A stretch of DNA of 36,355 nt from contig CAKZNA010000127.1 of NCBI GenBank assembly GCA_937129355.1, positions 1 through 36,355 of the forward strand, written 5' to 3'. Positions 13,287 through 15,957 of this stretch are shown piece after piece. Origin of the DNA: an uncultured Sphingomonadales bacterium (lineage in GTDB: Bacteria > Pseudomonadota > Alphaproteobacteria > Sphingomonadales > Sphingomonadaceae). The stretch's first letter is position 1. Each line of letters starts with the position of its first letter. The translations under genes and the position numbers were made by a program. Below the pieces are notes generated by a model, which searched no databases, had not been told where the DNA came from, and saw only the letters and a program-made list of their open reading frames with translations.

Positions 13287-13870
13287 AGCTTTTCGCTAAT
13301 CGCTCGCTTTAATTCAGGCAGCACGTCTGCTTCGAACCAAGGATTCTTCTTCATCCATCCGGCGACCCGCCAGGATGGATGGGGCAGAGGGAAGATGTTT
13401 GTGCCATGGGCGCTGAAATTTTGGACACGGTGAGAGAGCGATTGTTTTTTGCTTTCGGGCAAGAACTCCACCTGAGCATAGCTGCCGACCAGCAACGTTA
13501 AACGGTCTTCAGGCAAATGCTCTAAGATGCGCTCATGCCACAATGGCGCGCATTCCTTGCGTGGCGGTAGGTCGCCGCTTTTGCCCTTGCCCTTGCCGGG
13601 ATAGCAAAACCCCATCGGCATCAGCGCGACTTTATCTGCATTGTAGAAATCGTCCGGCTTGATACCCGTCCATTCACGCAGACGCTCCCCACTCGGATCA
13701 TCCCAAGGCACGCCGGTCGCATGCACCTTGCTGCCCGGTGCTTGACCGATGATAAGGATGCGCGCGCTGCCGCTAAATTGTACAACGGGGCGGGGTCCAG
13801 CGCCGAGATGCTTCGCGCAATGGGTGCAGGCGGCGATTTGGCTGCGTAATGTCTCAATTGTTTCAGACAA
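13283..13870 (-). CDS. uracil-DNA glycosylase superfamily protein
   Basis: LRSQIAACTHCAKHLGAGPRPVVQ, ARILIIGQAPGSKVHATGVPWDDPSGERLREWTGI, LLVGSYAQ, PLPHPSWR motifs. Start inferred as TTG at 13870; the ORF track extends to 13993. Confidence 0.85.
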   Translation of the reverse strand: MSETIETLRSQIAACTHCAKHLGAGPRPVVQFSGSARILIIGQAPGSKVHATGVPWDDPSGERLREWTGIKPDDFYNADKVALMPMGFCYPGKGKGKSGDLPPRKECAPLWHERILEHLPEDRLTLLVGSYAQVEFLPESKKQSLSHRVQNFSAHGTNIFPLPHPSWRVAGWMKKNPWFEADVLPELKRAISEKL

Positions 13871-14975
13871 CGACCGTTTCCAACATCCGCAATGTGCCCG
13901 CATCTGCATCAATCTCCGCCTGCACGCCCACAGGTATGCAATATTGATTGCGGATATGGCCGAAATTTGCGCCGCTAAATGCGGGGATGCCAAGCGGCGC
14001 TATATGCTGCTGCAATATGGTCGAAAGCTTGAAACCGCTTTCGCTGCCACGTGCCTTGCAACTGGTGCATTGGCCGAAAACGAAACCCGACAGTTTTTTG
14101 AGGAGGCCAGCTTGCCCCATTTGTGTGAGCATTCGGTCGATCCGGTATTCGGCCTCGTCAACATCTTCGAGGAAAAGGATCGCTCCTTCAAAATCCGGAA
14201 GCCACTGCGTGCCGACCAGCGCGTTGAGTACGGTCAGGTTCCCGCCGAGCAATCGCCCGCGTGCCTTGCCGACGCCGATCGTCAGGTTTGGCCATGGAGG
14301 TATTATGGCGGTGTCGTCCGGACTATCGCTGGCGGAGTTGTCGCTCGCGGGTTTGGGCGGTTCGCCAAATGTCGGGCGCTCCCCATCGAAGGCCAAAGCC
14401 TGAAAACTGCCTTCCGAATTCTCCCACCAGCTACTTGTCGCATTTGGCCCGTGGATGGTGGCGAAGCCAGCTTTGGCCGCAATCGCCATATGCAGTGCCG
14501 TTATGTCGCTATAGCCAATGAGCAATTTCGGATTGGCGCGCACTATGTTCCAATCAATATAAGGCAACATGCGCGCACAGCCCCATCCACCACGCAGCGC
14601 GAATATGGCTTTCACTTGCTTGTCTGCGAACATAGCAGTCACATCGGCGGCGCGGCTTCGGTCGCTTCCGGCGAGATAGCCGAATTGGTCTTCCAGATGC
14701 TTACCCCGTTTCGGGATCAAACCCAGATTGCGGATGGCGGTTTCGGCGCGCTCAATTTCAGCGGTGCCACTGGACGGTGTGGCGGGCGCGATCAACCCTA
14801 CCGCATCACCTTTCCGCAATCGGGATGGTTTTCGCAAAGGCGATTTGGCAAAAGCCGGCGGCGCGATCAAATGCGATGCAGCAACCATGGAGGCCATTCC
14901 GGCGATTATTTGCCTTCTTGTTGCTGTCATCGAAAAGCCTTTCCGCGTGCCGTTTGCATCCATCATTAACTCCAA
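13863..14975 (-). CDS. S66 family peptidase (LD-carboxypeptidase / MccF-like) with twin-arginine signal
   Basis: KGDAVGLIAPATPSSG, FALRGGWGCARMLPYIDW, IGYSDITALHMAI, GNLTVLNALVGT, ILFLEDVDEAEYRIDRMLTQ. N-terminus MTATRRQIIAGMASMVAASHLIAPPAFA (alternative start 14930). Confidence 0.92.
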   Translation of the reverse strand: MELMMDANGTRKGFSMTATRRQIIAGMASMVAASHLIAPPAFAKSPLRKPSRLRKGDAVGLIAPATPSSGTAEIERAETAIRNLGLIPKRGKHLEDQFGYLAGSDRSRAADVTAMFADKQVKAIFALRGGWGCARMLPYIDWNIVRANPKLLIGYSDITALHMAIAAKAGFATIHGPNATSSWWENSEGSFQALAFDGERPTFGEPPKPASDNSASDSPDDTAIIPPWPNLTIGVGKARGRLLGGNLTVLNALVGTQWLPDFEGAILFLEDVDEAEYRIDRMLTQMGQAGLLKKLSGFVFGQCTSCKARGSESGFKLSTILQQHIAPLGIPAFSGANFGHIRNQYCIPVGVQAEIDADAGTLRMLETVVV

Positions 14976-15073
14976 ATTTCACGAAAATACCCGCATTTTT
15001 TGCGCGAATGTGTTTCGCTAGGTAAAAAATGCGACAAAATGCAAAAGAAATTTTTGCGGAGTCCGTGACTCTG

Positions 15074-15140
15074 TAACCCGCAGAATTGAGTCGTTTCGGT
15101 AAATTTATGTTGCAAACGACTCGTGGATCTCTGCGGGTTA
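15074..15140. repeat. nested inverted repeat in the ctrA upstream region
   Basis: Outer arms TAACCCGCAGA (15074-15084) / TCTGCGGGTTA (15130-15140). Inner arms GAGTCGTTT (15088-15096) / AAACGACTC (15114-15122). All arms perfect. Confidence 0.9.
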
Positions 15141-15152
15141 ACTCGAAATTAA
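15138..15152. promoter_or_regulatory. candidate CtrA binding site upstream of ctrA (TTAA-N7-TTAA)
   Basis: TTAA-CTCGAAA-TTAAC, matching the established CtrA box spacing. Downstream TATGGTTAATAA could serve as a -10. Confidence 0.65.
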
Positions 15153-15187
15153 CCTTTTCAGTTCATCTCCCTTATGGTTAATAAATG

Positions 15188-15258: not shown

Positions 15259-15957
15259 ATGCGGGTACTATTGATTGAAGACGAACCGACAACAGCGAAA
15301 GCCATCGAAATGATGCTCGCGACTGAAGGCTTCAATGTTTACACAACCGATCTTGGCGAAGAAGGCCTCGATCTGGGTAAGCTATATGATTACGACATTA
15401 TCTGTCTCGATCTGAACTTGCCTGACATGCATGGTTATGATGTGCTGAAAAAATTGCGCGTCGCCAAGGTGCAAACTCCCGTTCTTATTCTTTCCGGCAT
15501 TAGCGAGATGGACAGCAAAGTGCGTTCATTTGGTTTCGGTGCCGATGATTATGTGACCAAGCCTTTCCACCGTGAAGAGCTGGTTGCCCGCATTCACGCC
15601 GTTGTGCGCCGTTCAAAAGGCCATTCACAGTCGGTTATCCGCACTGGCAAGCTGGCCGTGAACCTTGATGCCAAAACTGTTGAAGTTGACGGCAGCCGCG
15701 TTCATCTAACCGGCAAGGAATATGCGATGCTTGAACTGCTTTCACTGCGCAAGGGCACGACGCTGACCAAGGAAATGTTCCTGAACCATCTATATGGCGG
15801 CATGGACGAGCCTGAGCTTAAGATCATCGACGTCTTCATCTGCAAGCTGCGTAAGAAACTCGCGCTGGCATGTGGCGGCGAAAATTATATCGAAACCGTG
15901 TGGGGACGTGGCTACGTTCTGCGCGATGTAGAAGCCGAAGAAGCGCAAGTCGCCTAA
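15259..15957 (+). CDS. ctrA: cell-cycle response regulator transcription factor CtrA
   Basis: [67 protein letters not shown]...[19 protein letters not shown]...[12 protein letters not shown]...[14 protein letters not shown]: near-canonical alphaproteobacterial CtrA. Confidence 0.97.

Follow-up and report, generated by a model that had tools for sequence, protein, structure and literature searches.

Results

Architecture of the ctrA upstream region

The window, by which we mean the whole 36,355-nt stretch of DNA analyzed here, carries a ctrA gene encoding a 232-residue response regulator with Response_reg and Trans_reg_C domains. Upstream of it, and outside the putative switch, lies a divergent gene identified by Pfam as an LD-carboxypeptidase, which is the upstream neighbor in only three of the compared loci. 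The ctrA intergenic region is 41% G+C, versus 54% for the window. A translated search found ctrA orthologues 96 to 98% identical in most members of the genus, and among named relatives the nearest ctrA genes belong to Sphingorhabdus and other Sphingomonadaceae. Besides the window's own genome (G000), we used 36 others from the genus. Promoters were compared in a genus set of 36 ctrA upstream loci (32 from the genus and four from named near relatives) and in an outgroup of about 70 other Sphingomonadales ctrA upstream loci, and the second TTAA of the CtrA box served as the anchor, upstream of which site positions are given as negative numbers. The genes and sites are as follows.

13863 to 14975, minus strand: LD-carboxypeptidase (Peptidase S66), divergent from ctrA
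15059 to 15063, plus strand: fourth GANTC (GAGTC), at −90; 1/36 genus-set loci, particular to the own genome among those compared
15067 to 15071, plus strand: third GANTC (GACTC), at −82, 51 bp upstream of the core site; 10/36 genus-set loci
15088 to 15092, plus strand: second GANTC (GAGTC), at −61, 30 bp upstream of the core site
15117 to 15123, plus strand: candidate core methylation site CGACTCG, its GANTC at −31, 20 bp before the CtrA box; conserved in position and sequence
15138 to 15152, plus strand: CtrA box TTAA-CTCGAAA-TTAA (TTAA-N7-TTAA), ∼107 bp before ctrA
15259 to 15957, plus strand: ctrA

The stretch from the divergent gene to the GANTC cluster also contains a perfect 10-bp inverted repeat (CGCATTTTTT/AAAAAATGCG, 14992–15033). 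In five genomes of the same genus that are 93 to 99% complete (G007, G016, G017, G023, and G034), the translated search did not find a ctrA orthologue, its best matches being paralogues ∼36 to 38% identical. The ctrA promoter core was likewise not found in these five genomes, and GcrA, CcrM, and ChpT are present in them; ctrA may possibly have been lost in part of the genus, or the assemblies may have gaps.

GANTC sites are clustered upstream of ctrA and held at fixed positions

As the original prediction stated, four GANTC sites, starting at 15059, 15067, 15088, and 15118, fall within 64 bp (15059–15122) upstream of ctrA. Such a cluster is unusual because GANTC is depleted in the window, which contains 57 sites, less than half of the 137 (SD 11) that dinucleotide shuffles predict. 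If 57 sites are placed at random over the window, any four of them fall within 64 bp with a probability of 0.006; no other such cluster exists in the window.

The original prediction depended on these sites being conserved in close relatives, and an alignment of related ctrA upstream regions bore this out for GANTC at fixed −31 and −61 positions. A GANTC lies exactly at −31 in 24 of the 36 genus-set loci and in 25/70 other Sphingomonadales loci (45/70 have none at exactly that position), and exactly at −61 in 18/36 genus-set loci, with a few more at −60 or −62; 12/36 genus-set and 12/70 other Sphingomonadales loci have one at −22 or −23. In the 80 bp preceding the anchor, GANTC density reaches 28.8 per kb in the genus set, ∼18-fold the window rate of 1.57 per kb, and 16.6 per kb in the other Sphingomonadales. 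The same comparison run with ten control pentamers did not yield a peak comparable to that of GANTC. On a ctrA tree of 49 rows, the presence of the −31 site requires four changes, as does that of the −61 site. The −31 site reads CGACTCG in 18/18 aligned promoters (those with both sites, which align without gaps) and in all 25 of the other Sphingomonadales loci that have it, and the combination GANTC-N12-18-CtrA box occurs a single time in the genome, at ctrA.

A sister lineage that encodes GcrA and CcrM has lost the −31 site and mostly lost the −61 site while keeping ctrA; the GANTC module is therefore dispensable there. We considered loss of CcrM or GcrA as the cause of the missing GANTC in some relatives and rejected it because both are present in those lineages. 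Several upstream loci (L023, L025, L028–L030, and L032–L034, and partly L007, L017, and L027) carry an inverted repeat of the type TTTGTGAAC-AAAAATA-TCACAA upstream of ctrA. This repeat is conserved and occupies the place of the lost −31 GANTC, as if another regulator had taken the place of the methylation site.

The CtrA box heads the most conserved intergenic block

A full TTAA-N7-TTAA upstream of ctrA, as expected of a CtrA-autoregulated P2-type promoter, is present here, and most genus members have the box. Its TTAA columns and AAATTAACC are invariant in the 18 aligned promoters. We propose that it could serve both as the activator site of P2 and, lying over the −10 region of P1, as a repressor site. 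The block that begins within it is the following.

15149 to 15182, plus strand: downstream core TTAACCTTTTCAGTTCATCTCCCTTATGGTTAAT, the proposed CtrA-activated P2; the most conserved intergenic block

The downstream core includes GGTTAA, the inverted form of a TTAACC half site, and a related core, TTAACC..TTCA..GGTTAAT, is found in other Sphingomonadales. Most Sphingomonadales ctrA promoters conserve the inverted CtrA half site GGTTAAT (15176–15182), which sits about 27 bp past the first base of the second TTAA. A scan for a sigma-70 consensus promoter did not find one; the −35/−10 frame used below is deduced from the GANTC 20 bp before the conserved TTAA.

The nested dyad combines a putative P1 element with a shorter inverted copy

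The original prediction described a nested inverted repeat, and both dyads are indeed perfect in the window: the inner one, GAGTCGTTT (15088–15096)/AAACGACTC (15114–15122), is nested within the outer one, TAACCCGCAGA (15074–15084)/TCTGCGGGTTA (15130–15140), whose right arm continues into the CtrA box. An additional small dyad, GAGTCCGTGACTC (15059–15071), had not been named separately. The elements that make up this arrangement are given below.

15075 to 15092, minus strand: inverted copy of the P1 element, 4 bp shorter (AACCCGCAGAATTGAGTC; minus-strand reading GACTCAATTCTGCGGGTT), consisting of the outer left arm and the −61 site
15088 to 15122, no strand assigned: inner dyad, perfect here, its pairing not conserved
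15118 to 15141, plus strand: P1 element GACTCGTGGATCTCTGCGGGTTAA, which includes the outer right arm

The P1 element recurs in Sphingopyxis, Sphingobium, Hephaestia, and others. Allowing up to three mismatches, it occurs only at ctrA, in the own genome and in 2/6 relatives, and no further copies of the whole element were found away from ctrA promoters in the own genome and the six relatives. The right arm belongs to an older element, close to GACTCGTGGATTTCTGCGGGTTAA, which Sphingopyxis, Sphingobium, and others possess without the left arm. Read on the minus strand, the left arm and the −61 site give GACTC-ATTTCTGCGGGTT, that is, the inverted and 4-bp-shorter copy, which may have arisen by inverted duplication. 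An inverted copy combined with palindromic GANTC sites results in a nested dyad. Despite differences in the upstream gene, the left arm is retained in much of the genus and also in L061, and because it persists with differing upstream neighbors and orientations, the left element seems to be part of ctrA control. The −61 site within it is probably an additional site for GcrA or for a partner protein.

The inverted left element could instead be a leftward GcrA-type promoter, serving the divergent gene or an antisense or noncoding RNA, a reading that we regard as unlikely. The minus strand does contain GACTC-N3/4-TCTGCGGGTT, which is P1-like but 4 bp shorter, and the neighboring gene is divergent in the own genome. 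Across the genus, however, the neighboring gene changes, and the longest upstream frame in L012, L014, and L024 is codirectional with ctrA, but the element (or its GANTC) is retained; nor was a conserved −10 on the left side seen by eye. As a divergent promoter for the LD-carboxypeptidase in particular, it was rejected because this neighbor is not conserved.

It is likewise improbable that the arms are operators for some dimeric regulator, or for SciP, with the GANTC overlap being secondary. GCGAC is a SciP half site (PMC4287350) and overlaps the −31 GANTC in most relatives, the own genome encodes a SciP-family homologue, and the left arm stays in species without a GANTC at that place, all of which would fit operator arms. 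The SciP half site is nevertheless absent at −31 in the window, which has ACGAC there, and it is the GANTC letters that form the invariant part and GANTC alone for which enrichment is seen.

Pairing between the arms is not conserved

The original prediction further took secondary structure or the symmetry of the dyad as a working part, and several features of the window speak for such a role. The single-sequence fold is strong (−73.5 kcal/mol, z = −5.7 versus shuffles), the 11-bp outer pair is the sole inverted repeat of its kind with a gap ≤60 that the window contains (P about 0.01 when the intergenic region is shuffled by a Markov model), and the pairing between the window's own two arms is far better than that of its left arm with any swapped partner. 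The inner dyad is partly nonindependent of the GANTC count because any two GANTC sites whose middle bases complement each other are reverse complements and form 5-bp arms automatically, so that five of its 9 bp come free.

Among the relatives, by contrast, pairing did not exceed that of shuffles: 66.1% of cells in both dyads were paired in the 18 promoters, compared with 66.9% after shuffling, and covariation stayed at shuffle level, with a two-sided change in one pair only. The arms of a given locus paired no better than arms swapped between species (permutation p = 0.11, or 0.30 when the window is omitted). The window itself is an outlier with near-ideal arms (−22.7 kcal/mol), L022 and L061 being next best. 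Four loci (L007, L017, L027, and L036) retain an intact left arm, AACCCGCAGAAA, and have lost the right arm, and changes in the middle base of the −61 GANTC are not mirrored at −31. Compensatory changes that keep the arms complementary, which would mark a conserved RNA or DNA hairpin, thus stayed at shuffle level in these promoters, and the covariation and conservation expected of both dyads failed to appear: the arms are not conserved as a pair, swapped arms do equally well, and the left arm outlives the right. On the between-species arm swaps and the pair counts we rejected a methylation-sensing hairpin or cruciform, in DNA or RNA, as the gate for ctrA, and we hold it to be very unlikely; the fold would moreover be absent from ctrA mRNA because the predicted start sites lie downstream of the dyad. 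The hairpin-like symmetry is probably a by-product. That the GANTC sites cluster by chance in an intergenic gap rich in A+T, as the low G+C content might favor, has a negligible probability given how rare such a cluster is in the window, and it is refuted by positions that are fixed in dozens of relatives.

A probable GcrA/CcrM-driven P1 and CtrA-driven P2

GcrA and ChpT are each encoded in 37/37 genomes (the GcrA of the own genome matching PF07750), and a CcrM-type RAMA domain in 36/37 (PF18755 in the own genome); the sole genome without a RAMA match, G027, is an assembly that is 85% complete. Both proteins on which a GcrA/CcrM-dependent P1-type promoter would rely are thus encoded. What stands of the original prediction is a putative methylation-sensing module coupled to CtrA autoregulation, to which the fixed distances between GANTC and the CtrA box, together with encoded GcrA, CcrM, ChpT, and SciP homologues, point.

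The Caulobacter P1 promoter is activated by GcrA and later repressed by CtrA as P2 is activated. We think it likely that the present locus is a sphingomonad version of this pair, with a P1 driven by GcrA and CcrM and a P2 driven by CtrA. We infer a GcrA-dependent P1 and a CtrA-dependent P2 because the arrangement resembles the overlap in Caulobacter, with the CtrA box lying 20 bp past the core GANTC and heading the most conserved block. The phased GANTC sites would be methylated by CcrM, and GcrA would bind the methylated CGACTCG, whereupon RNA polymerase would open the weak upstream P1. The −10 region of P1 would fall on the first half of the CtrA box, with a start near 15152. Accumulating CtrA would bind TTAA-N7-TTAA, shutting P1 and activating P2 in the conserved block directly downstream, with a predicted start near 15177–15184. 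Replication would leave the sites hemimethylated, and ctrA expression would in this way be tied to fork passage. Several observations count against this reading: the 20 bp from GANTC to TTAA, where Caulobacter P1 has 14 to 15 bp; the lack of a sigma-70 consensus match; the sister lineage that does without the −31 and mostly without the −61 sites; and the 45/70 other Sphingomonadales loci whose −31 position has no GANTC.

The −61 and −82 sites lie about three and five helical turns above the core site, which would suit side-by-side binding. We tentatively raise a further idea, to which we give rather low confidence, that Sphingorhabdus-like ctrA genes combine phased GANTC sites with an inverted P1 copy such that at least two GcrA molecules on the same face could count methyl marks (full, hemi, or none) cooperatively.

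Discussion

The locus shares with the Caulobacter crescentus ctrA promoters (P1, P2, and P3) a GANTC upstream of a TTAA over a putative −10 (PMC4287350 and PMC3667746) and a full TTAA-N7-TTAA that would serve the downstream promoter, and the CcrM, GcrA, CtrA, and SciP regulators are encoded here too. Caulobacter P1 has its GANTC at −28/−29 and a TTAA at −14; the complete TTAA-N7-TTAA occupies −39 relative to P2 and −14 relative to P3 (PMC4287350). The distance from GANTC to TTAA is 14 to 15 bp at Caulobacter P1 versus 20 bp here, and a single GANTC there contrasts with four phased sites at this locus (as many as five across the genus); the inverted copy of the element upstream is a feature of the locus described here. 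Two juxtaposed GANTC sites at the Caulobacter mipZ promoter (PMC3667746) offer a likeness in that multiple GANTC occur at one GcrA-dependent promoter, whereas the passages covered describe no array phased at 30 bp and linked to a complete CtrA box.

Within the Sphingomonadales, it is already known that ctrA can have multiple GANTC sites, 1 to 5 having been counted within 300 bp upstream (PMC8116508), and GcrA regulation of ctrA has been predicted, with the suggestion that it was acquired separately from the Caulobacterales (PMC7987155). Our locus belongs to this group, and the minus strand of CGACTCG (CGAGTCG) matches the GcrA-preferred motif YGAKTCK quoted in PMC7987155. The accessible parts of both papers give counts and predictions, without the fixed −31/−61/−82 spacing or the inverted copy. 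The fixed spacing, the unit of CGACTCG and CtrA box, and the genus-specific inverted copy are undescribed in the literature covered, which comprised the accessible parts of open papers.

The case shows that two conserved palindromic sites can mimic a conserved hairpin. For ctrA, the locus provides a precise and testable promoter anatomy for methylation control outside Caulobacter, and a sister lineage in which the sites are gone although GcrA and CcrM remain constitutes a natural evolutionary comparison. Cooperative counting of methyl marks, if true, would make for a steeper replication-coupled switch than the single-site P1 of Caulobacter.
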